Made by a program: the position numbers and the translations under genes
Shown: in pieces, positions 2,101 to 42,302 of the stretch
Position numbering within the stretch: the stretch's first letter is position 1
Layout: each line of letters starts with the position of its first letter
Source: Motilibacter deserti
GTDB taxonomy: Bacteria; Actinomycetota; Actinomycetes; Motilibacterales; Motilibacteraceae
Direction of reading: 5' to 3'
Length of the DNA stretch: 64,000 bases
Assembly (NCBI RefSeq): GCF_011250635.1
Contig: NZ_JAANNP010000001.1
Coordinates: forward strand, 652,933 to 716,932
The notes under the pieces: model-generated
Database searches by the model: none
What the model was told of the DNA's origin: nothing
What the model saw: the letters and a program-made list of their open reading frames with translations, nothing else

Positions 2101-2927
2101 GGGGGCTGCTCGGGCGGCTCTCGCCCCAGCCCGACGAGCCGCAGCGCCCGGCGGCCGGGCAGGTGGCAGCCGCAGCACGCGGGGTCGGCGTGCGCCTCGG
2201 CGCGCGCGCCGTCCTCGCGGACGTGACGCTGGACGTACGCAGCGGCGAGGTGCTCGCCCTCGTCGGCCCCAACGGCGCGGGCAAGTCCACGCTGCTGGGC
2301 GTGCTGTCCGGGGACCGGGAGCCCGACGTCGGGGACGTCGAGCTGCTCGGACGGCCCGTGGCCGACTGGTCGGTAGCGCAGCTGAGCCGCCGGCGCGCAG
2401 TCCTGCCGCAGCAGGTCGCCCTCGCGTTCCCCTTCACCGTCTCCGAGGTGGTCCGGATGGGCCGCCGGCCGTGGGCCGGCACGGACGCCGAGGACGACGA
2501 CGAGCGCGTGCTGGCCGAGGCGATGGCGCAGACCGACGTGGAGCAGCTGGCCGGGCGCGGCTTCCTGTCGTTGTCCGGCGGCGAGCGCGGGCGGGTGGCG
2601 CTTGCTCGCGTCCTCGCCCAGCAGACCCCGCTCCTGCTGCTGGACGAGCCCACGGCGGCGCTCGACCTGCACCACGTCGAGCTCGTGCTGCAGGTCGCCC
2701 GCGAGCGCGCGAGCCGGGGCGACGCGGTCGTCATCGTGCTCCACGACCTCGTGACCGCCGCAGCGCACGCCGACCGGGTGGCGGTGCTGGCCGACGGGCG
2801 GGTCGCCGCCTGCGGGCCACCGGCGCAGGTGTTCACGGCCGAGCTGCTCACCCGGGTCTACTCCCACCCCGTCGAGGTCCTCCCCCATCCCCGCACGGGC
2901 GCGCCGCTGGTGCTGCCGGTGCGCTGA
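2097..2927 (+). CDS. hmuV: Haem ABC transporter ATP-binding protein (HmuV-like)
   Basis: A 276-residue ABC ATPase that powers the haem importer. The Walker A motif GPNGAGKST is at residues 58-66, the signature is LSGGERGRVALAR, and Walker B is LLLLDEPTAALD, followed by the switch histidine in VLHDL. I chose the GTG at 2097 because it overlaps the permease stop (GTGA) and gives the normal family length. The open frame extends further upstream but only as antisense-like sequence inside the permease gene. This completes a three-gene hmuTUV operon on the plus strand. No DtxR or Fur box can be judged because the operon promoter lies outside the window. Confidence 0.9.
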   Translation: MRGLLGRLSPQPDEPQRPAAGQVAAAARGVGVRLGARAVLADVTLDVRSGEVLALVGPNGAGKSTLLGVLSGDREPDVGDVELLGRPVADWSVAQLSRRRAVLPQQVALAFPFTVSEVVRMGRRPWAGTDAEDDDERVLAEAMAQTDVEQLAGRGFLSLSGGERGRVALARVLAQQTPLLLLDEPTAALDLHHVELVLQVARERASRGDAVVIVLHDLVTAAAHADRVAVLADGRVAACGPPAQVFTAELLTRVYSHPVEVLPHPRTGAPLVLPVR

Positions 2928-2987
2928 GGCTGTCGGCGACGCCCATTCGTCTGTCATCGTTGGCGGGCCGCCGACGAAGGGACCGCC

Positions 2988-3506
2988 GTGGCCAGGGAAC
3001 TGCTCGCCCGCCGCACAGTGCTCGGCGCCCTCGTCCTCGGAGCGGTCGGGCAGCCCGGTGGCGCGCTGGCCGCCGGCCGGCCGACGCTGCCCGCCCGCGA
3101 GGTCCTCCGTGGCACCGACTGGGCGAACCGCACGTACTCCAGCAGCGACTTCGGCCCAGTACGCATGCAGCGCGGGCGGGCGGCGCTGGACGACGTCACC
3201 GACGTGCATCTGCGGCCGGTGCGCTACGGATCGGTGGCGGGCACGCCGTCCGCGCTGGTGCCCTACCTCGTGATCGACGTCCCGTCGTTGCAGGGCGCCG
3301 ACGACAAGCCCATCTACCTCGGCCTGCACCTGTTCCAGGCCGTCGGCGGCAAGGTGGTGCAGGTGGCGGCGGGCGAGGTGCACCCCGTGCCGCTGAAGGG
3401 GTGGCAGCTCGCCTTCCGCGGTGGCCGGGCCTATTGCCGCCCCGGGCCGGGCCGCCCGGTCCGCGAGCTCCTCGTGGCGAGGCGCCGCATCCGGCTGGCC
3501 CGGTGA
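2988..3506 (+). CDS. Secreted protein of unknown function
   Basis: This 172-residue protein starts at a GTG 60 bases after hmuV. The N-terminus contains RRTVLGALVLGAVG and then GGALAA, which looks like an export signal, possibly Tat because of the paired arginines. The mature part has no motif I recognise; it holds a single Cys (near residue 148) and a strongly basic C-terminus (RRRIRLAR). It lies on the same strand as hmuTUV and may be co-transcribed with it, which would make a role in haem handling possible, but nothing in the protein itself shows this. Function unknown. Confidence 0.6.
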   Translation: MARELLARRTVLGALVLGAVGQPGGALAAGRPTLPAREVLRGTDWANRTYSSSDFGPVRMQRGRAALDDVTDVHLRPVRYGSVAGTPSALVPYLVIDVPSLQGADDKPIYLGLHLFQAVGGKVVQVAAGEVHPVPLKGWQLAFRGGRAYCRPGPGRPVRELLVARRRIRLAR

Positions 3507-3699
3507 CTCCCGCGTAGGCACGGTCGACGCGGTGCGTCCCTCACCCGCGCGACGGCGATGAAGGCCGGGCTTCGTGCCCTCTCGTCAATCCACGAATCCC
3601 AGATCACGAACCACACCGCGCTGGTGAGCGGGCTGTCACTGCCGCCGTGGAAGGGCTGCGGCGACGTGACACGCGACCGCCAGTGGGCAGGATGCGCAC

Positions 3700-4626
3700 A
3701 TGCCGTCGAACCTGCAGGAGGAAGCCCGCCGCCTCGGGAGCTCCCTGGAGGGCTCTCCGCAGATGGTGCCCACGGCAGTGCCGAGGCTCGCGCAGATCCT
3801 CCAGCTGGCCGCGGCGGACGAGATGGTCGTCGAGGAGGCGGTCGACGCGTTGGGCAAGGCGTGGGACGCCTCGGCCGCGCAGGCGCTGCTCGACGCCGTA
3901 CGCCTCGACCACCCGAGCGCGGCGGTGCGGCTGGCGCTGGCCCGGGCGCTCCCCGGCGGCGTCGTGACCGCCGGGCCGCTGCGCGACCGCGTCGTCGCCG
4001 CGCTCACGCAGCTCAGCACCGACGAGCACGCCCGGGTACGCGACTGGGCCGCCTTCGGGCTCGGCCAGGTCGAGGCCGACTCCCCGGCGGCCCGCGACGC
4101 GCTCGCCGCCCGGCTGCACGACCCGGACCCGCAGGCACGCTGCGAGGCCCTGCTCGCCCTGGCCCGGACCGGGGACCACCGGGCCGTCGACGCCCTGCTC
4201 CAGCGCCTCGACGGCGCCGACGACGACCTTTGGCGCCAGGAGCTCGAGGCCGCCGCGGTCCTGGCCGACCCGGCGCTGCACGAGGCGCTGGAGCGGCTGG
4301 GACAGGAGTGGGCGGGCGACCAGGACGAGTTCACGGACGTGCTCGCCCTGGCCCGCGCCCGGTGCCGCCCCGACGCGGCGGGGCAGGCCGCCGCCGCCGA
4401 GGCCCGCACGCTGCGCGCGGTCCGCGCCGCCCTTCCGGCCGGCGTCACGGCCCAGCTGCGGCACGCCTACCCGCGCACGGTCGTCGCCATCGCGCACGCG
4501 AGCCTCGGCGAGATCGAGCTCGCGCTCTGGGGAGAGCTGGAGAACCCGTGGGCCTACGACGCCACAGCCGTCCTCAACGCCGTGGCAGGCACGTTCGGCG
4601 GGCTGCCGGCCGACCGCCGCCGCTGA
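3700..4626 (+). CDS. HEAT-repeat protein
   Basis: A 308-residue soluble protein without signal peptide, built largely of helical HEAT/PBS-lyase-type repeats. Units of about 30 residues with the pattern VRxxAAxALG/ARxxALLALARxG recur between residues 40 and 210, for example around VRDWAAFGLGQVE and ARCEALLALARTGD. Such repeats form protein-binding solenoids; no catalytic residues are evident. It ends 8 bases before the stop of the convergent SDR gene. The preceding 193 bases (3507-3699) contain nothing I can assign. The partner and role are unknown. Confidence 0.75.
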   Translation: MPSNLQEEARRLGSSLEGSPQMVPTAVPRLAQILQLAAADEMVVEEAVDALGKAWDASAAQALLDAVRLDHPSAAVRLALARALPGGVVTAGPLRDRVVAALTQLSTDEHARVRDWAAFGLGQVEADSPAARDALAARLHDPDPQARCEALLALARTGDHRAVDALLQRLDGADDDLWRQELEAAAVLADPALHEALERLGQEWAGDQDEFTDVLALARARCRPDAAGQAAAAEARTLRAVRAALPAGVTAQLRHAYPRTVVAIAHASLGEIELALWGELENPWAYDATAVLNAVAGTFGGLPADRRR

Positions 4627-5877: not shown

Positions 5878-7575
5878 TCAGCCCTCGCGGGTGAGCCGCT
5901 CGCGCACCTGCCGGCGCAGCACCTTGCCCACCTGGCTGCGCGGCAGGTCCGCCACGGCCACGATCCGGCGCGGCGTCTTGTAGCCCGCCAGCCGCTCCCG
6001 GCACCAGGAGCGCAGCGCGTCGAGGTCGAGCTCGTGGCCCTCGGCCGGCTGCACGGCGGCAGCGACGAGCTCATTGCCGGACGCGTCGCGCAGGCCGACC
6101 ACGGCCGCGTCGTGCACCCCCTCGTGCCGGCGCAGCACGTCCTCGACCTCCGACGGGTAGACGTTGAACCCGCCCGTGATGATGAGCTCCTTGATCCGGT
6201 CGACGATGCGCACGAAGCCGTCTTCGTCCATCACGGCGATGTCACCGGTGCGGATCCAGCCTCCGGGCAGCAGGGCCTGCGCGGTCTCCGCCGGCCGCTG
6301 CCAGTAGCCGGCGAACACCTGCGGCCCCTGCACCAGCAGCTCCCCCGCCTCGCCGCGCGGGCGCTCGACCGACGGGTCCTCGGGGTCGACGATCCGCACC
6401 CGGGTCGACGGGAAGGGCACGCCCACCGTGCCCGGGCGGCGCTGCGCCGAGATGGGGTTGCCGATCGTGATGGGCGACGTCTCGGTCATCCCGTAGCCCT
6501 CGACGAGCAGGCCGCCGGTCAGCTTCTCCCAGCGCTCGACGGTCGCTGGTGGCAGCGACATCGCCCCCGAGATGGCGAACCGGATCGAGGAGAGGTCCGC
6601 GCCGCGTTCCTCCACCGCGTCCGCGAGCCGGTCGTAGATCCCGGGAACCCCGGGCAGGAACGTCGGCGGACGGCGCTTGGCGGCGGCGAGGAACGTGTCG
6701 ACGTCGAACCGCGGCAGCAGCACCACGCACGCGGCCAGCCGGACGGCGGCGGTCAGGCAGAGGGTGAGCCCGTACGCGTGGAAGATCGGCAGCACGCCGA
6801 AGAACGTCTCCTGCCCGACCCGCAGGCCCGGGACCCACGCGGCCGACTGCTCGGCGTTCGCAGCGAGGTTGCGATGGGTCAGGACCGCGCCTCTGGGCGT
6901 GCCCGTCGTGCCGCCCGTGTACTGCAGCAACGCGGGGTCGTCGGCGGCCGGCAGCGGCGTCGCGGGGTCGAGCTCGGCGGCCGCGGCGACCAGCCGCTCC
7001 CAGCTGCGCGACCCGGCGGGGACGGGGGCGCGCAGCTGCTCCCTCGTGCGCCGGGCCTTTGCGACCGGGAGCCGCAGCGCGAGCCGCTTGCCCAGCGGCA
7101 GGGCGGCCGACAGGTCGACGGTGAGCACCGTCTCGACCGCGGTCCGGGCGCGCACCGAGTCCACGGCCGCCGCCGTCTTCTCCCAGACCACCGCGACCCG
7201 GGCACCGGAGTCGGCGAGCTGGGCCGCGAGCTCGTCAGCGGTGTAGAGCGGGTTGTGCTCCACGACGACCCCGCCGAGCCGGAGCACCGCGTAGAACGCG
7301 ACGACGTGCTGCGGGCAGTTCGGCAGCACGATCGCGACCCGGTCGCCGGGGCGTACGCCGAGCCGGCGCAGCGCCTCGGCGGCCCGCGCGACCTGCCGGG
7401 CGAGCTGCGCGTACGTCGTCGTGGACCCCATGAAGTCCAGCGCCGTCGAGGGCCCGTGCTCGGCGACGGCCCGGTCGAGCAGCGCCGTGAGCGGCCGGTC
7501 GGGGACGTCGACGTCGGCCGGCACGCCGGGGGCGTACGAAGCGAGCCACGGGCGGTCGATCAAGGGGTCGGCCAT
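5878..7575 (-). CDS. Long-chain fatty acid-CoA ligase (AMP-forming)
   Basis: A 565-residue adenylate-forming enzyme that activates a carboxylic acid, probably a fatty acid, to its CoA thioester. Diagnostic motifs are the P-loop-like YTGGTTGTPRGAVLTH, the adenine-binding GYGMTETSP, the hinge/core motif RTGDIAVMDEDGFVRIVDR with KELIITGGFNVYPSEVE, and the C-terminal catalytic Lys in RSQVGKVLRR. I placed the start at ATG 7575 (MADPLIDRPW); the frame extends 49 codons further but that stretch lacks homology-like features. Length fits FadD-type ligases. It is convergent with the merR gene and divergent from the next SDR gene. Confidence 0.88.
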   Translation of the reverse strand: MADPLIDRPWLASYAPGVPADVDVPDRPLTALLDRAVAEHGPSTALDFMGSTTTYAQLARQVARAAEALRRLGVRPGDRVAIVLPNCPQHVVAFYAVLRLGGVVVEHNPLYTADELAAQLADSGARVAVVWEKTAAAVDSVRARTAVETVLTVDLSAALPLGKRLALRLPVAKARRTREQLRAPVPAGSRSWERLVAAAAELDPATPLPAADDPALLQYTGGTTGTPRGAVLTHRNLAANAEQSAAWVPGLRVGQETFFGVLPIFHAYGLTLCLTAAVRLAACVVLLPRFDVDTFLAAAKRRPPTFLPGVPGIYDRLADAVEERGADLSSIRFAISGAMSLPPATVERWEKLTGGLLVEGYGMTETSPITIGNPISAQRRPGTVGVPFPSTRVRIVDPEDPSVERPRGEAGELLVQGPQVFAGYWQRPAETAQALLPGGWIRTGDIAVMDEDGFVRIVDRIKELIITGGFNVYPSEVEDVLRRHEGVHDAAVVGLRDASGNELVAAAVQPAEGHELDLDALRSWCRERLAGYKTPRRIVAVADLPRSQVGKVLRRQVRERLTREG

Positions 7576-7751
7576 CGGCCCAGTGTCGTACAACGCCCTG
7601 TGGACGGCCTGCGCGAGGCTCCCGGTCGGGCGCCCTGCCCGGCCCCCGTCCGGTCTCTGCCAACCCGGGGCGAGCTCGGCCGCATCGAGACGTCCGTGCG
7701 GGTCGGGCGTCCGGAGATGCACGGCGCGGGCGCAGCGGCGACGATCGTGGG

Positions 7752-9287
7752 GTGAGCGAGAAGCTGTGCCTGGTCACCGGGGCGACCGGCTACATCGGCG
7801 GCCGCCTGGTGCCCGAGCTGCTGGCGGCGGGCCACCGGGTCCGCGTCCTGGCCCGGCGGCCGGAGAAGCTGCGCGACCACCCCTGGGGCGGGGACGTCGA
7901 GGTGGTCGTCGGCGACGTGTCCGTGGAGGACGACGTGCGCCGGGCCCTCGACGGGGTCGACGTCGCGTACTACCTGATCCACAGCCTCGCGGCCGGCCCG
8001 CGCTTCGAGGCGACCGACCGCGCCATCGCCCGCTGCTTCGCGAAGGCGGCGCGGGAGCTGCGCGTGGGCCGGATCGTCTACCTCGGCGGGCTGCTGCCCG
8101 AGCACGAGGAGCTGTCGCCGCACCTGCGCTCGCGCGCCGAGGTCGGCCTCATCCTGCTCGCGTCGGGCGTCCCCACCGCGGTCCTGCAGGCCGCGGTCAT
8201 CCTCGGCTCGGGGTCGGCGTCGTTCGAGATGCTGCGCCACCTCACCGAGCGCCTCCCCGTGATGGTGACGCCCAAGTGGCTGGACAGCCGCATCCAGCCG
8301 ATCGCCGTGCGTGACGTCCTGCGCTACCTCGTCGGCGCCGCGGGCCTGCCGGCCGACGTGAACCGGGCCTTCGACATCGGCGGGCCGGACGTGCTGACGT
8401 ACGAGCAGATGATGAGGAGGTACGCCCGGGTCGCCGGCCTGCCGCGCCGGCGCATCCTCAAGACCCCCGTGCTCAGCCCGTCGCTGTCCAGCCACTGGGT
8501 CGGCGTGGTGACGCCGGTGCCGCGCAGCATCGCGCGGCCTCTCGTCGAGTCGCTGCGCAACACCGTGGTCTGCCGGGAGCACGACATCGCCGAGTACGTC
8601 CCCGACCCCCCGGGCGGGCTCGTCGGCTTCGACCGGGCGGTCGAGCTCGCCCTGACCCGGATCCGCGAGCTGCAGGTGCCCACCGCGTGGACCACGGCGT
8701 CGACGCCCGGTGCCCCGAGCGACCCGCTGCCGACCGACCCGGACTGGGCCGGCGGCGACCTCTACGTCGACGAGCGCGAGCGCTTCGTCGCGGCCTCCCC
8801 CCAGGCGCTGTGGCGGGTGATCGAGGGCATCGGCGGCGAGCGCGGGTGGTACTCCTTCCCGCTGGCCTGGCGGGCGCGCGGCGTGCTCGACCGGCTCAGC
8901 GGGGGCCCGGGCCTGCGGCGCGGCCGGCGCGACCCCGACGACCTGCACGTCGGCGAGGCGCTGGACTTCTGGCGGGTGGAGGAGGTCGAGGAGGGCGTCC
9001 TGCTCCGGCTGCGCGCCGAGATGCGGCTGCCCGGACTGGCCTGGCTCGAGCTCGAGGTCAAGCGCTCGCGCGAGGGGCGGACGGTGTTCCGGCAGAAGGC
9101 GACCTTCCACCCGCACGGCCTGGCCGGCCGGGCGTACTGGTGGAGCGTCTGGCCCTTCCACGGCGTCGTCTTCGGTGAGATGCAGCGCAACGTCGCCCGC
9201 GCCGCGGAGGAGCTCGAGCGCCGCCACCCCGACCCCGGCCACGCCTCCGCGCAGGACCTGCGCGCGGTCAGCAACCCGCTGCGCTGA
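7752..9287 (+). CDS. NAD(P)-binding SDR protein with C-terminal DUF2867-like domain
   Basis: A 511-residue two-domain protein. Residues 1-300 form an atypical/extended SDR (NmrA-like) domain with the nucleotide-binding motif [11 protein letters not shown] at the N-terminus and the YYLIHS segment in place of the usual YxxxK. Residues 330-490 resemble the DUF2867 domain, a START-like fold, with [20 protein letters not shown] and [15 protein letters not shown]-like signatures. The start is a GTG at 7752. The combination is widespread in actinobacteria, but neither substrate nor pathway is known. The gene runs toward the palindrome array at 9340-9498. Confidence 0.8.
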
Positions 9288-10471: not shown

Positions 10472-12060
10472 CCCCGGTCGAAGGTCGTGCCCCGTGGTGG
10501 CGTGACGCCGTCATCTACCAGGTCTACGTCCGCAGCTTCGCCGACGCGGACGGCGACGGCATGGGCGACCTGGCCGGCATCCGGTCGCGCCTCCCCTACA
10601 TCCGCGACCTGGGCGTCGACGCGATCTGGATCAACCCGTTCTACCCCTCGCCGATGGCGGACGCCGGCTACGACGTGGCCGACTACCGCGACGTCGAGCC
10701 GATGTTCGGCACCCTCGACGACGCGGACGCACTGCTGCGCGAGGCGCACGAGCTCGGGCTGCGCGTGATCGTCGACCTGGTGCCCAACCACACCTCGGAC
10801 CAGCACGCGTGGTTCCAGGCCGCGCTCGCCGCCGCGCCGGGCAGCCCGGAGCGCGCCCGCTACGTCTTCCGCGACGGCAAAGGCCCCGACGGCGCGCAGC
10901 CGCCGAACGACTGGCGCTCGGTCTTCGGCGGGCCGGCGTGGCAGCAGGTGCCGGACGGCCAGTGGTACCTCCACCTGTTCGCGCCCGAGCAGCCCGACCT
11001 GGACTGGACGAACCCCGAGGTCGTCGCGGAGTTCCACTCGATCCTGCGGTTCTGGCTCGACCGGGGCGTCGACGGCTTCCGCATCGACGTCGCGCACGGG
11101 CTGGCCAAGGACCCCGGGATGCCCGACATCGCGGGCCGCTTCGCCACGAGCGGGCAGGCCGTCGAGGGCCACCCGCACTGGGACCAGGACGAGGTCCACG
11201 AGGTCTATCGCGGCTGGCGGCGCGTCATCGACGAATACCCCGGCGACCGCACGTTCGTCGCCGAGGCGTGGGTGCACAGCCCGGAGCGCCTCGCGCTCTA
11301 CGTGCGCCCCGACGAGCTGCACACCGCGTTCAACTTCAGCTTCCTGCTCGCGCCGTGGGACGCCAAGGCGGCCCGGGCGGCGGTCGACGACAGCATCGAC
11401 GCGCTCTCCGGCGTCGGCGCGCCGCCCACCTGGGTGCTGTCGAACCACGACGTGGTGCGGCACGTGACCCGCTACGGCGGGGGCGGGACCGGGGCCCGGC
11501 GCGCCCGGGCCGCGGCGCTGCTCATGCTCGCGCTGCCCGGCGGCGCATACGTCTACCAGGGCGAGGAGCTCGGCCTGCCCGAGGTCGAGGACCTGCCCGA
11601 CGAGGCGCTGCAGGACCCGACGTTCCTGCGGACCGGCGGGCAGGAGCGCGGGCGCGACGGCTGCCGGGTGCCGATCCCGTGGTCTGGCGAGGAGCCGCCG
11701 TACGGCTTCGGCCCGTCCGGCACGCCCTGGCTCCCGCAGCCGCCGGCGTGGGCGCAGCTCAGCGTGGAGAAGCAGGAGGGCGACCCGGAGTCGATGCTGT
11801 CGCTCTACCGCCACGCGCTCCGGCTGCGCCGGGAGCTGCCGGCCCTCGGCGACGGCACGCTCGGCTGGGCGCCGTCGGCCGACGGGGTGCTCGCGTTCCG
11901 GCGCGAGCCCGGCTTCGTCTGCGTCGTGAACTTCGGCCCCGACCCGGCGCCGATCCCGGACGAGCTGCTCGCCGACGGCGAGGTGCTGCTGGCGAGCGCG
12001 CCGCTCGACGGTGACGGCACGATCCCCGGCGACACCGCGGTCTGGTACGCCGCCAGCTGA
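10468..12060 (+). CDS. aglA: Alpha-glucosidase, glycoside hydrolase family 13
   Basis: A 530-residue GH13 enzyme of the oligo-1,6-glucosidase/alpha-glucosidase subfamily. The four conserved regions are all present: [20 protein letters not shown] (catalytic nucleophile Asp), FVAEAWV (acid/base Glu) and [10 protein letters not shown] (transition-state Asp). The N-terminus [26 protein letters not shown] is typical. No signal peptide is seen, so it acts in the cytoplasm, probably on malto- or isomalto-oligosaccharides or trehalose-related sugars. It is translationally coupled to glbO by a 4-base overlap; the functional reason for this conserved pairing is not known. Confidence 0.9.
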
Positions 12061-12089
12061 CCGCTTCTTCTCCCCGGGAGGACCCTGCC

Positions 12090-12497
12090 GTGTTCCCACG
12101 CGTCGGTGACCTGCGCACCCTCGAGCTCGGCGACGCCGGTGGCATCCGGTCGCGGCTGAACGGCCTCGTGCTGGCCGGGCAGAAGACGGCCACGCTCGGG
12201 CTGCTCGACGAGTACGCCGAGGAGGGCGAGGAGGTCGAGCACGTCGGCGAGCAGATGGTCCTCGTCGACGACGAGGGGCTCCCCATCGGCACCGTGGAGA
12301 TCACCGACGTGCGGCACTCGACCTTCGGCGAGGTCGGCTGGGACTTCGTGCAGGCCGAGAACGAGGGCGACGAGTCGGTGGAGGAGTGGCGCGCCGGGCA
12401 CATCGCCTACTGGGCGAGGATCGGGCGCCAGGTCGACCTCGGGACGAAGGTTGTCCAGCTGCGGCTGCGGCTAGTCCCCACGACGGCCGAAGACTAG
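12090..12497 (+). CDS. ASCH domain protein
   Basis: A 135-residue protein consisting of a single ASCH domain, a PUA-like beta-barrel proposed to bind RNA or modified nucleosides. The segment with VLAGQKTATLGLL followed by GLPIGTVEITDVRHSTFGEV is characteristic, and WDFVQAENEGDESVEEWRAGH matches the family C-terminus. The start is the GTG at 12090, with GGGAGG centred about 10 bases upstream. Some ASCH proteins are amidohydrolases acting on N4-acetylcytidine, but which activity applies here is unknown. It follows the glucosidase gene by 29 bases on the same strand. Confidence 0.8.
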   Translation: MFPRVGDLRTLELGDAGGIRSRLNGLVLAGQKTATLGLLDEYAEEGEEVEHVGEQMVLVDDEGLPIGTVEITDVRHSTFGEVGWDFVQAENEGDESVEEWRAGHIAYWARIGRQVDLGTKVVQLRLRLVPTTAED

Positions 12498-12612
12498 TTC
12501 GGCGATCTCCGACTCGTCACTTGCGCGTTCCTTCCCATGAGCCTCGTGCTCGCGGGAGGGACATGAGCGGTTCCTAGCGTCGGGACCACCTGTCCTCGAC
12601 CTGGGAGCGTCA

Positions 12613-13563
12613 GTGACCCCCTCCACCATCCCGGCACGGCGCCTGGTGGCTCTCGCCGCCGCCGCGCTCGCTGTCGTGCTCACCGTCGGCCTCGCCGTCT
12701 TCCCGCGCTCCTCCGCGGACGCCGCGCAGCGGTCCACGCCCGCCCTCGGCACGATCGCCGCCGACGAGCTGCACGTCATGACGTTCAACCTGCGCTACGC
12801 GAGCACGAGCCGGCCGAACTCCTGGGCCGAGCGCCGCCCGGTGATGCGCGACCTGCTCCGCAAGGAGCGCCCGGACATCCTCGGCACCCAGGAGGGCCTC
12901 TACTCGCAACTGCAGGACATCGAGAAGGACCTGCCCGGCAACGACTACCGCATGATCGGCGTCGGCCGGGAGGGTGGCAGCCGCGGCGAGTTCATGGCCG
13001 TCTTCTACAACACCGACCGGCTGCAGCCGCTCGAGTTCGACCACTTCTGGCTGTCGGACACGCCGAACGTCATCGGCTCCAACACCTGGGGCGGCGGCTC
13101 GATCCGCATGGTCACGTGGGTGCGGTTCCTGGACAAGGTCACGAACCAGCAGTTCTTCGCGTTGAACACGCACCTCGACAACTCCAGCGAGAACGCCCGC
13201 CGCCGGGCCGCCAGCCTGATCGACCAGCGTGTCCGCGCACTCAACCCGGCCCTGCCGAAGATCGTGACCGGCGACTTCAACACCGCCGCGGGCGCGGGCA
13301 GCGTGCCCTACTCCACGCTCGTCACCAACGGGGTGCTGCAGGACACCTGGGTGAACGCCGCGGAGCGCAGCCCGGTCTACGGCACGTTCCACAACTACCG
13401 GCCGCTCACGCCCAACGGCGCCCGCATCGACTGGATCCTCGCCAGCGCCGGCGTGACGACGCGCGCGGTGGCCATCAACACGTTCTCGAAGGGTGGCCAG
13501 TTCCCGAGCGACCACCTGCCCGTCGAGGCGGTCGTGAAGCTGCCGGCCCCCGCCGCCTCCTGA
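12613..13563 (+). CDS. Secreted endonuclease/exonuclease/phosphatase family protein
   Basis: A 316-residue exported metal-dependent phosphodiesterase-fold protein. The N-terminus has a Sec signal (hydrophobic residues 10-30, cleavage near SADAAQ). The catalytic core shows the family landmarks: MTFNLRY with the active-site Asn, GTQEGL with the metal-binding Glu, NTHLDN, TGDFNTAAG and the terminal SDHLPVEA His. Substrates of this superfamily range from DNA to phospholipids and sugar phosphates, and nothing here selects one. The GTG at 12613 is 3 bases after an unremarkable GGGAGCG site. It stands alone, 115 bases after the ASCH gene. Confidence 0.85.
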   Translation: MTPSTIPARRLVALAAAALAVVLTVGLAVFPRSSADAAQRSTPALGTIAADELHVMTFNLRYASTSRPNSWAERRPVMRDLLRKERPDILGTQEGLYSQLQDIEKDLPGNDYRMIGVGREGGSRGEFMAVFYNTDRLQPLEFDHFWLSDTPNVIGSNTWGGGSIRMVTWVRFLDKVTNQQFFALNTHLDNSSENARRRAASLIDQRVRALNPALPKIVTGDFNTAAGAGSVPYSTLVTNGVLQDTWVNAAERSPVYGTFHNYRPLTPNGARIDWILASAGVTTRAVAINTFSKGGQFPSDHLPVEAVVKLPAPAAS

Positions 13564-39769: not shown

Positions 39770-39921
39770 ACGCCGACCTCGACCGGCTCGCGCGGCGGCT
39801 CGAGCGCCGGCGCCGGCTCGTGCTGGTGCTCGAGCGCCGAGCGCAGCGGCTGCAGCCGGCCCGGGCGGGGCGGTCGACGCCGCCCCGCCCGGAAGGCGCG
39901 CCGGTCAGGCGTACCGGGTGA
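39766..39921 (+). CDS. Small Arg-rich ORF coupled to the permease
   Basis: A 51-codon frame starting at GTG 39766, overlapping the permease stop as GTGA. The product (VNADLDRLARRLERRRRLVLVLERR at its start, in pieces) is 30 percent or more arginine by eye and predicted helical in its first half. Its 3' end runs 17 bases into the convergent Tat-signal gene. Coupling favours translation, but the composition could also reflect GC-rich noise. No family recognised. Confidence 0.35.
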   Translation: MNADLDRLARRLERRRRLVLVLERRAQRLQPARAGRSTPPRPEGAPVRRTG

Positions 39922-40456
39922 AGATGACCTTGCCGCCGGAGCAGTGCGCCTCCTCGTGGCCCGAGCCCCCGCTGGGCGTGCACAGGTTGATGTCCGAGAC
40001 CCACGCCTTGACGAAGCTGGCGAGTGTCGGCAGCAGCAGGTAGAGCCCGGTCTTGCCGCTGAGGAAGCCGCCGGACACGGACATGCCGAGGTCGCTGGGC
40101 TTGGACCAGGTGGCGTAGCCCAGCGACCGGAGGAAGTCGGCGTCCCGGTCGCCCTTGGCGGTTGGGATGCAGTCGATGACCCCGTGCTCATCGATCTTGA
40201 CCCCGAGGAGGCACGGCCGGCCCCACTTCCACACCGTGCACAGCAGGAGGCCGGTGGCCGGGATGCAGGGCTTGGGCGGGTCGGCCGGAACGGTCGGCAC
40301 CGGCGGCGTCGGCCCCGCGGAAGCCGCGTCGGCGGTGCCCACGGAGATGGCCTGCATCGCGGGGACGGCCCACACTGCCGCGCCTCCCACGAGCGCGCCC
40401 TTCTTCAGCGCCTCGCGGCGGCTGATCCCCGTCGTGCTCTCGGCCCGTGTCGTCAT
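39905..40456 (-). CDS. Twin-arginine-signal protein, paralogue A
   Basis: A 183-residue exported protein of unknown function. The Tat signal reads SRREALKKGALVGGAAVWAVP, followed by AMQAISVGTADAAS and a Pro-rich linker. The mature domain has CIPATGLLL, LGVKIDEHGVIDCIP, SKPSDLGMSVSGGF, KTGLYLLLP and GKVIFTRYA, each with a counterpart in the protein at 41757-42302, so they are paralogues. This copy has six cysteines in the mature part, the other only two. GAGGAGC precedes ATG 40456. It is divergent from the PqqD/HPr-kinase-like gene. The fold and function are not known to me. Confidence 0.75.
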   Translation of the reverse strand: MTTRAESTTGISRREALKKGALVGGAAVWAVPAMQAISVGTADAASAGPTPPVPTVPADPPKPCIPATGLLLCTVWKWGRPCLLGVKIDEHGVIDCIPTAKGDRDADFLRSLGYATWSKPSDLGMSVSGGFLSGKTGLYLLLPTLASFVKAWVSDINLCTPSGGSGHEEAHCSGGKVIFTRYA

Positions 40457-40525
40457 GCTGCTCCTCGAAGCTCTCGAAAATGCCGTCTCCAGCGTAGGAA
40501 CGGCAGACCCCATGACAGGCCACCT

Positions 40526-40542
40526 CCAGTTCGCCAAACTGG
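40526..40542. promoter_or_regulatory. Small dyad in the divergent promoter region
   Basis: CCAGTT-CGCCA-AACTGG is a 6-base-arm inverted repeat in the 178-base region between paralogue A and the PqqD/HPr-kinase-like gene. It may be an operator for one or both genes; no other element in this gap is clear. Confidence 0.35.
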
Positions 40543-40634
40543 GCTTCACCCGTTCGGCCCCTCGGTTGCCTGCCGACCGGGTGACGCCGCGCTCGACGCA
40601 GCGTTGCGGCGTGGTCACGCACTAGGCTGTCCGG

Positions 40635-41753
40635 GTGCCGGAGCCACGTGTCGGGCCGCCGCTGCCCGGGGTCGTCAGCGTCGACCTGGACGGCCTCGTG
40701 AGCGCCTACTCGCCACTCAAGGACGAAGTCGTCTTCCTGAACGAGACAGCGAGCGACGTCTGGCGCCTCGCCGACGGCGAGCACACGCCGGACGAGCTGG
40801 CCGCACTGCTGGCGACGGGCTACGGCACCGATGCGGCGACGCTGCGCGGCGACGTGGAGCGGCTGCTGGACGGCCTCGCCGCCGCTGGCCTGCTGCCGGG
40901 CGCACGGCCGGCTCCGCCGCCGGTCGCCCTGCGCGTGCTCGACGTGCCGGTGGGCCTCCTGGTGGAGGACGCGGCGCTGCACGGGCTGCTGGGCGGGCTC
41001 TGGGCTGACTGCGCCGAGCCGTCGGACGCCGAAGCGCCGGACGACAGGGCGCCGGACGACGAAGCGAGGCGGCCGGTCGTCGTGCGCGTCACCGGGCACG
41101 GCCCGTGGCAGGTCTCCTCGCCCGCGCACCGCGTCGAGGCCGCCTCCCTGCCCGCGGCGGTCGGTGAGGCCTGTGCCGCCGTGAACCTCTCGGCCGTCGC
41201 GGCCACTCCCCTGCTCGCCTTCCACGCGGCCGTCCTGCGCCACGGCGCGACGACGGTCGCCGTCCCCGGGGCGTCGGGCGTCGGCAAGTCGACGCTCACG
41301 GCCGCCCTGCTCCTCGAGGGCTGGGAGCTCGTCAGCGACGAGGCGCTCGCCCTGCCGTGGCGCGCGGGGCCTCCCGCGGCGTACCCCCGGCCGCTCGCGC
41401 TCTCGGACTGGTCGCGCGCGACGCTGGCCGCCCCCGACGGCGTGGAGGCCGTCGGCGAGCACTTCCTGCGGGCCGCCGACCTCGGCTCGCGGCCGGCGGC
41501 GTCCGTCGGCCCGGTGTCGGACGTCGTGCTGCTGCGCCGTTCGGACGACCCGCCGGAGCTCGTGTCGGTCGGGCGTACCGAGGCGCTGCAGGCCCTGCTG
41601 CCCCGGGGCTTCACCTCGGTGCAGGACCCGGCCGCCGCCCTCGGCGTGCTCGGCGACGTGCTCACCGGGGCGCGCACGTGGGCGCTCGTGCTGGGCGACC
41701 CGCGACGGGCCGCCCGGCTCCTCACCGAGCGGCTCGTCCCAGCGGCCGGCTGA
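40635..41753 (+). CDS. PqqD-like domain fused to HPr-kinase-like P-loop domain
   Basis: A 372-residue soluble fusion. Residues 12-90 are PqqD-like, the peptide-binding fold of RiPP recognition elements, with the hallmark LNETASDVWRLADGEHTPDELAALL in parts. Residues 185-372 resemble the HPr kinase/phosphatase C-domain: FHAAVLRHGATTVAVPGASGVGKST (P-loop 212-220) then LVSDEALAL, where the Asp-Glu would bind Mg. The linker (125-147) is acidic. It would bind a peptide or leader and use ATP to phosphorylate something. Its neighbours on both sides encode paralogous Tat-exported proteins, which are candidate partners. The GTG at 40635 starts it. Function is inferred, not known. Confidence 0.78.
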   Translation: MPEPRVGPPLPGVVSVDLDGLVSAYSPLKDEVVFLNETASDVWRLADGEHTPDELAALLATGYGTDAATLRGDVERLLDGLAAAGLLPGARPAPPPVALRVLDVPVGLLVEDAALHGLLGGLWADCAEPSDAEAPDDRAPDDEARRPVVVRVTGHGPWQVSSPAHRVEAASLPAAVGEACAAVNLSAVAATPLLAFHAAVLRHGATTVAVPGASGVGKSTLTAALLLEGWELVSDEALALPWRAGPPAAYPRPLALSDWSRATLAAPDGVEAVGEHFLRAADLGSRPAASVGPVSDVVLLRRSDDPPELVSVGRTEALQALLPRGFTSVQDPAAALGVLGDVLTGARTWALVLGDPRRAARLLTERLVPAAG

Positions 41754-41756
41754 GGG

Positions 41757-42302
41757 TCAGCAGGCCTTGCTGAACGTCACCCGCCCGCTCACGGGCGTGA
41801 CCGCGGCGTAGTCCAGACCGGCCGGGCTGCCCGGGCCGCCGGACAGGTTGCCGTCCGCCGTCCAGGCGCCGACGAACGTCGTGCCGGTCGGGACGACGAG
41901 GTAGAGCGCCGTGCCACCGGCGGCCTTCCCTCCGGACACCGTGATGCCGGCGGCCGACGGCTTGACCCACCCGGAGTAGCCGCGGGGCGCGGCGCCGAGG
42001 AACTCCGCGTCGCCGTTCTTGGCCGGGATGCCGTCGATCGACCCGTCCTCGTCGACCTTGATGCCGACGAGGACGCCGCCCGCCGTGCGCACCAGCAGCA
42101 GGCCGTGCGAGGGGATGCACGCCGCGGGCTGCGGGCCGGGCGGCGGCACGGTGCCCGAGGCTGCGTCGGCGGTGCCCACGCTCATCGACTGCATCGCCGG
42201 GACGGCCCAGACAAGGGCGCCGCCGACGACCGCGCCGCGCTTGAGAGCGTCCCGACGGGTGAGCTGTCCCGTCACGGGCGACGCGTCCGCATTCTGCTGC
42301 AT
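41757..42302 (-). CDS. Twin-arginine-signal protein, paralogue B
   Basis: A 181-residue exported protein, clearly related to the one at 39905-40456. The Tat signal is TRRDALKRGAVVGGALVWAVP with AMQSMSVGTADAAS, nearly the same as paralogue A. The mature part has CIPSHGLLLV, LVGIKVDEDGSIDGIP, VKPSAAGITVSGGK, GTALYLVVP and GRVTFSKAC. The last residue is Cys, and only two cysteines occur in all. GGAGGT precedes ATG 42302. It ends 4 bases from the convergent PqqD/HPr-kinase-like gene and lies downstream of cobN on the same strand, but with its own promoter-like sequence. Function unknown. Confidence 0.75.
   Translation of the reverse strand: MQQNADASPVTGQLTRRDALKRGAVVGGALVWAVPAMQSMSVGTADAASGTVPPPGPQPAACIPSHGLLLVRTAGGVLVGIKVDEDGSIDGIPAKNGDAEFLGAAPRGYSGWVKPSAAGITVSGGKAAGGTALYLVVPTGTTFVGAWTADGNLSGGPGSPAGLDYAAVTPVSGRVTFSKAC

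Follow-up and report, generated by a model that had tools for sequence, protein, structure and literature searches.

A 64,000-nucleotide stretch of the genome of Motilibacter deserti (contig NZ_JAANNP010000001.1, positions 652,933 to 716,932 of the forward strand; hereafter the window) carries a gene that joins a PqqD-like domain to an HprK-like kinase domain. This fusion gene lies between the genes of two paralogous proteins with twin-arginine translocation (Tat) signals, and the three together would form a small module that modifies proteins before their export. In the proposed scheme the PqqD domain, acting as a RiPP recognition element (RRE; RiPP, ribosomally synthesized and post-translationally modified peptide), docks on a W-x-x-P motif (WxxP) of the Tat signal and the kinase phosphorylates the cargo before it leaves the cytoplasm; we assign this reading as a whole a probability of about 0.65. 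Its parts differ in firmness. A functional partnership of the PqqD and HprK-like proteins with the Tat proteins is highly probable. Binding of the RRE to the WxxP motif is probable, and phosphorylation of a Ser near the mature N-terminus is slightly favoured. The features concerned are the following (window coordinates).

40635..41753, plus strand: PqqD (RRE)-HprK-like fusion gene, 372 aa, GTG start; Pfam and NCBIfam matches, AlphaFold2, Foldseek
40671..40895, plus strand: PqqD/RRE domain, about residues 13-87; Pfam, model, profile alignment
40923..41750, plus strand: HprK/PEPCK-like kinase domain, spanning residues 97-372 and including His197, P-loop Lys218 and Asp235-Glu236; alignment, model, Foldseek
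41268..41294, plus strand: P-loop GASGVGKST, residues 212-220; sequence, its columns being invariant in the kinase alignment
39905..40456, minus strand: Tat-signal protein 1 (P0002, 183 aa), presumed substrate; Tat model, paralogy
40361..40372, minus strand: WAVP (W-x-x-P) in the Tat signal of protein 1; sequence
40319..40321, minus strand: candidate phosphosite Ser46 in protein 1, at +2 from the predicted AxA cut; register
41757..42302, minus strand: Tat-signal protein 2 (P0003, 181 aa), presumed substrate; Tat model, paralogy
42198..42209, minus strand: WAVP (W-x-x-P) in the Tat signal of protein 2; sequence
42156..42158, minus strand: candidate phosphosite Ser49 in protein 2, at +2 from the predicted AxA cut; register

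The PqqD part of the fusion is recognised by the Pfam model PF05402, which matches residues 30-87 above its cut-off (E 1e-13). TIGR04353 (HPr-rel-A PqqD; 16.4 bits, cut-off 35) and the lasso PqqD model NF033530 (25 bits, cut-off 70) score below theirs. For the kinase part the best-scoring NCBIfam model is TIGR04352, a weak match that fails its cut-off (E 4.6e-13; 48.9 bits, cut-off 200); PF07475 (17.1 bits, cut-off 33.3) and TIGR00679, the HPr kinase/phosphorylase that regulates the phosphotransferase system (15.1 bits against the fusion, cut-off 240), also fall below. The AlphaFold2 model of the fusion has a mean pLDDT (predicted local distance difference test) of 92. Its PqqD part folds as the winged helix of an RRE, with three chains of TbiB1 (5v1u/5v1v) as Foldseek matches (TM-score by target 0.84-0.86, 1.8-1.9 Å), and the remainder adopts the HprK/PEPCK fold, for which Foldseek returns PEP carboxykinase and HPr kinase structures. 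The kinase part has the fold and motifs of an HprK-like enzyme, misses the curated sequence cut-offs and is predicted to be active. Residues 234-236, read from the translation, form an SDE motif, and the His, Lys and Asp of the lasso kinases appear to be present as His197, Lys218 and Asp235.

The two flanking proteins are encoded on the strand opposite to the fusion gene. P0002 and P0003 are 48% identical over 176 columns; identity is about 41% in the mature parts and reaches 28 of 36 positions in the signals. The generic Tat model TIGR01409 (cut-off 16.7 bits) accepts P0003 at 17.0 bits and fails on P0002 at 14.2-14.9 bits, but the twin Arg of P0002 and its paralogy to P0003 make it likely that it is a Tat protein as well. 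The start of P0002 was taken as the ATG at 40456 in preference to a longer GTG open reading frame. For the mature domain neither Pfam nor NCBIfam gives a match above cut-off. A fold search of the PDB was empty at E <= 0.001, a result of little weight as the query model has a mean pLDDT of 62; full-length matches among 60 relatives were confined to the genus. The initial annotation had described a PqqD/HPr-kinase-like fusion between two Tat paralogues, and the PF05402 match, the modelled folds and the 48% identity bear it out.

The same three genes occur in the same order in a second species of the genus (G001). In the window they are flanked by an FtsX-type ABC transporter and cobalamin genes, and sigma-70 and terminator scans found nothing. 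Among the eight flanking genes scanned there was no lasso enzyme family and, in particular, no macrolactam synthase (cyclase) or B2 peptidase of the paeninodin type; nor was there an SpI-like LppS peptidase, an MsbA-like exporter (the flanking transporter has an FtsX permease) or a nucleotidyltransferase. A lasso cluster at this place was dropped on these grounds, in agreement with the initial view that the locus is not a standard one.

The proposed link between the fusion and its neighbours is the WxxP motif. The RREs of lasso peptides and of linear polyphosphorylated peptides (LPP) bind [Y/W]xxPx[L/V/I/F/A] in their leaders, where the Y/W and the P matter for binding, according to Popov et al. 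2026 (PMC13381572). In the precursor LppA the same source places Y at -16 and P at -13, and the third residue behind a signal-peptidase-like cut is the Ser that becomes phosphorylated. Both window proteins carry W at -16, P at -13 and Ser at +2 of the predicted cut, with WAVPAM beginning at -16. In 47 distinct collected signals the W stands at -16 in 32, at -14 in seven, at -15 in four and at -17 or -18 in four, counted from the predicted AxA cut. This set excludes wrong-frame readings (L259, L260), a truncated one (L178), L270, L271 and L274, which were skipped by rule, and one duplicate at L013. A Ser lies within +1 to +5 of the predicted cut in 45 of the 47, against 5 or 7 (depending on the AxA chosen) of 26 ordinary Tat signals of M. 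deserti, these being the members with an AxA among 28 signals that lack WxxP.

An unbiased view comes from running TIGR01409 on the M. deserti genome and reading all 35 matches. Thirty-three show the twin Arg. Five of these have WxxP, every one of them at one of three PqqD/HprK loci; the other 28 all lack it (Fisher 4e-6). The three loci are the one in the window, one on contig C231 (L012) and one at 41-47 kb of contig C232 (L011). Four PqqD genes of this genome pass the Pfam cut-off, and three of them adjoin an HprK-like gene and one or two such Tat proteins; L012 differs in that its PqqD and its kinase are encoded by two genes, some 5 kb from the Tat protein. The fourth (C227, L149) has neither an HprK-like gene nor such a Tat protein in a 12-kb stretch.

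The partnership recurs well beyond the genus. A contig search with the fusion protein sequence (P0001) alone gave no match, while alignment A2 gave 80 loci, roughly a dozen of them in this subfamily. A profile of the kinase, made from the first relatives, was then run on 393 genomes of the class, where it gave 60 matches at E <= 1e-8 in 46 genomes. Forty-eight of these were examined as loci and split into the 22 best (E <= 1e-35) and 26 weaker ones; the 12 others include G000:C157 and G019:C169, and some lie inside regions already listed. Apparent W..P matches in the wrong frame (L125, L137, L139, L144, and second ones elsewhere) were excluded by eye. All 22 best loci have a PqqD gene within about 1.3 kb of the kinase, centre to centre, and 21 have a WxxP-Tat protein within 5.2 kb; the remaining one is cut off by the end of its contig, where the beginning of a Tat signal can still be read. 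The weaker loci hold a WxxP-Tat protein in seven cases and a PqqD-Tat fusion in two. Conversely, a signal model built from such neighbours (A3) gave 29 matches at E <= 1e-11 in 20 of the 393 genomes, and 28 of them adjoin PqqD and/or HprK.

Products differ between families while the arrangement is kept. In a Jiangella-like family (13 loci) the product consists of the signal, usually followed by A(S/V)PSG, and a Pro-rich stretch. It ends in an LPxTG-type tail at 11 of these loci, the other two being cut or frame-broken. A similar tail is found at L023, L038, L039, L040 and L112. These tails were read by eye and one was confirmed by a model match.

Another natural PqqD-HprK fusion (373 aa) is encoded at L190:9494-10615, in a metagenome-assembled genome of the Actinomycetes. 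A WxxP-Tat signal lies about 1.2 kb upstream of it, and the gene downstream resembles the nucleotidyltransferases of other loci.

Co-occurrence can also be followed at the level of whole genomes, using a signal model (A4) that matches 12 of 81 genomes in the family of G145. G406, counted among these, proved to lack WxxP when read. PqqD, which is present in 21 of the 81, occurs in nine of the 11 genomes with a read WxxP-Tat protein (2.9 expected, P 4e-5). In G409 and G423, both outside the A4 training set, the WxxP signal lies 1.2-1.7 kb from PqqD. Across the 393 genomes A4 is matched in 31, the kinase profile in 46 and both in 20. A test set was formed of the 19 A4-matching genomes that neither served for training nor belong to the Jiangellaceae-like family. 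The best match shows RR and WxxP in 15 of them, and eight of these 15 have the kinase (1.0 expected, P 5e-7). G205, G238, G272, G391 and G406 had been removed from the WxxP counts after their A4 matches were read.

The PqqD side supports the same assignment. A profile of 17 PqqD domains (A7), searched against the PDB, matches TbiB1 (1.3e-13), an RRE whose structure was determined together with its lasso leader (5v1u, 5v1v), LppB (9x8z, E 5.5e-7) and PbaB1 (9x90, 5.1e-5). According to PMC13381572, changing N33 of LppB to Ala almost abolishes assembly of the complex, and D70 fixes the Tyr of the leader. By the ungapped profile alignment, N36 of the window protein would correspond to LppB N33 and D73 to D70. 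The equivalent Asn is kept in 14 of the 17 rows and the equivalent Asp in nine. The lower conservation of the Tyr-specific Asp fits leaders with Trp.

In two genomes the PqqD-like domain and the Tat signal belong to one polypeptide. G015 encodes two proteins in which a PqqD-like domain is followed directly by a Tat signal and a secreted domain, with the kinase adjacent. When the first 120 residues of one of these proteins served as query, the 393 genomes yielded a single additional case, G024, which belongs to another family and again has the fusion beside a kinase of this type.

L127 (G015), 7146-8261 and 12028-13140: PqqD-Tat fusions beside an HprK-like gene
L126 (G024), 375-1061 and 3-323, the second cut by the contig end: PqqD-Tat fusions beside an HprK-like gene

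With the Pfam PqqD model the L127 protein goes undetected and the L126 protein stays slightly below the cut-off; a custom PqqD profile recognises both. The three complete fusion signals have no WxxP, and the L127 and L126 stretches hold no separate PqqD. A simple reading of this small sample is that the covalent link makes the docking motif unnecessary.

What we observe are the domains, a partnership kept in several families, the motif with its register, and the shared Ser; from these we infer binding, phosphorylation, its site and the following order of events. The PqqD domain would dock as an RRE on W-x-x-P-x-(hydrophobic) within the hydrophobic core of the Tat signal, which would thus double as a RiPP-type leader. 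Docking would bring the HprK-like kinase, fused or as a partner, to a Ser just past the signal-peptidase site. Phosphorylation of this Ser, which stands at +2 in both proteins of the window, would take place in the cytoplasm and use ATP. The signal would then be released, the modified protein exported by Tat and the leader removed by signal peptidase. The initial annotation had put forward recognition of the conserved N-terminal region of both Tat proteins by the fusion, with their phosphorylation or another modification before export as the presumed outcome. The recurrent partnership supports this proposal, and the match of WxxP to a published RRE motif supplies a basis for recognition.

Several observations weigh against this scheme. 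The kinase motif of the fusion is His-Lys-Asp-Glu, whereas His-Lys-Asp-Asp is reported for lasso kinases (PMC9266682). The fused PqqD-like domains of L126 and L127 lack the key Asn and a short segment, and may be degenerate rather than working RREs. Seventeen of the 26 weaker kinase loci (two of them at or near contig ends) have no such Tat protein, from which it follows that the kinase family at large also has a part in other systems. The signal collection was made partly with a pattern requiring W..P, so that the invariance of these residues in A3 is by selection, and where several AxA were possible the one nearest to -16 was taken as the cut. WxxP-Tat proteins also occur away from any partner. 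Three in M. deserti itself, found only with A3, have no PqqD/HprK in the stretch around them (one at C232:422194, L262, and two on the 5-kb contig C154), and at L262, L263, L267, L268, L269 and L273 neither gene lies within about 8 kb. G135 (a complete genome with three matches) and G410 have WxxP-Tat proteins with no PqqD found. Seven of the 15 test genomes (G050, G079, G135, G229, G239, G327, G364) have no HprK at E <= 1e-8, and among these seven G079 has PqqD while G135 does not. Finally, the genomes share ancestry, so that the co-occurrence probabilities overstate independence. The expectation attached to the initial annotation, that the exported proteins and the PqqD-HprK pair should occur together, therefore stands at the level of genomes, where co-occurrence is above chance, and does not stand for every single protein, since some, three of them in M. 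deserti, have no such neighbour.

The unlinked proteins give some room to the idea that WxxP is simply common to one class of actinobacterial Tat signals, and that the adjacency arises from shared surface polysaccharide loci with no recognition involved. Several of the loci are indeed rich in glycosyltransferase-like genes (read by eye; one confirmed by Pfam). The trio of the window, however, does not lie in a polysaccharide region, its flanks being the ABC transporter and cobalamin genes, and yet it is kept. WxxP as a general Tat feature is rejected for the generic Tat signals of M. deserti, where it occurs in none of the 28 outside the PqqD/HprK loci, and could still apply to genomes with WxxP-Tat proteins in which no RRE was found. 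The PqqD-Tat fusions that lack the motif also speak for recognition, and we regard a mere coincidence of this kind as quite unlikely. A different alternative accepts recognition and denies the modification: PqqD would proofread Tat substrates as a chaperone, in the manner of the redox enzyme maturation proteins (REMPs), and keep hold of the signal until the cargo has folded or another step is complete; the HprK-like domain would power or regulate release, and the cargo would stay unphosphorylated. REMPs serve cofactor loading and have folds other than that of RRE/PqqD. According to PMC3316669 they bind Tat signals before export, as is proposed for the window PqqD, with the hydrophobic core in the directing role, and WxxP lies in that core. 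The pairing with HprK, the Ser just past the cut and the LPP precedent nevertheless point to phosphate transfer, which makes this alternative unlikely.

It could also be supposed that the fusion modifies a small unannotated precursor peptide, encoded nearby or elsewhere, and that the Tat proteins act downstream, since an RRE with an HprK-like kinase is typical of phosphorylated RiPP clusters. This is very improbable. The eight flanking genes, within a locus whose small open reading frames were not searched exhaustively, include no lasso enzyme family, the motif that RREs read sits in the Tat proteins themselves, and direct PqqD-Tat fusions exist.

Docking on the Tat signal followed by phosphorylation of the cargo has clear parallels in known systems. 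LPP, as described in PMC13381572, shares with the window genes an RRE and HprK-like kinase, a [Y/W]xxP near -16, a Ser near the start of the core and a leader cut by a signal-peptidase-type enzyme, and its genes stand in capsule loci. It differs in belonging to Bacillota and in having precursors of 35-200 aa, its own peptidase LppS and an MsbA-like exporter. In the window, by contrast, a Tat signal takes the place of the leader, one polypeptide combines RRE and kinase, and the cargo, here as in the related loci, is a secreted or LPxTG-tailed protein. The words Tat, twin-arginine and sortase are absent from the text of PMC13381572. Lasso peptides of the paeninodin type (PadeK, ThcoK, PsmK/PsmN) have the HprK-like kinase in common with the window; paeninodin is phosphorylated on its C-terminal Ser (PMC9266682), whereas the candidate Ser of the window proteins is near the mature N-terminus. 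The HPr-rel-A system (TIGR04352 kinase, TIGR04353 PqqD) is the nearest in NCBIfam, where TIGR04352 scores highest for the kinase part, and the cut-offs of both models are missed. The window system works like LPP and paeninodin modification and is assigned to neither family, because no exporter, peptidase or cyclase gene was found in the cluster and because cargo and leader differ. No open-access paper was found on an RRE motif within a Tat signal or on this pairing.

If the scheme is correct, RiPP-style leader recognition extends beyond small peptides to whole proteins, and a second code can be embedded in an export signal, routing the protein to a modifying enzyme before export. A modification step would be added to the Tat route, which is suited to it since Tat exports folded proteins. 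Actinobacterial PqqD/HprK pairs would gain a function, with substrates readable from the pattern RR...W-x-x-P...AxA...S.

The module might also act at a distance. G079 and G092 have 14 A4 matches each (some of them read) and one or two PqqD genes each, which suggests dispersed substrates. A tentative and rather doubtful extension is that one RRE-kinase set labels up to a dozen or more unlinked surface proteins across an actinobacterial genome, the phosphate serving to anchor a sugar or polysaccharide through PF14907. As many cargoes have LPxTG-type tails and lie in polysaccharide-like loci, such labelling would imply a protein-polysaccharide link at the cell surface. The PF14907 nucleotidyltransferase is present at three scanned relatives (L127, L136, L182) and is of the type annotated for PsmN, on the presumption that PsmN is PF14907. 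According to PMC9266682, this lasso enzyme, annotated as a nucleotidyltransferase, is needed to put a hexose on phospho-Ser, and its role suggests a further sugar step at those three loci.

Some minor features of the loci may be added. At L012 a DUF4012 protein (11196-12965; PF13196, E 7.6e-36) adjoins the Tat protein, and the locus has several glycosyltransferase-like genes. On the 5-kb contig of M. deserti that has no PqqD/HprK, two WxxP-Tat proteins stand in tandem (L013:679-2031 and 2551-3759), with VGSPPPG after the signal. A gene with the metallo-beta-lactamase fold, identified by eye, lies between the Tat protein and HprK at L011:6083-6760 and, in a related species, at L036:4436-5113. 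At L012, L023, L038, L039, L040 and L112, which represent several families, the module was seen by eye to stand beside genes resembling rplY-pth or mfd, a position beside housekeeping genes as if it were old and fixed.

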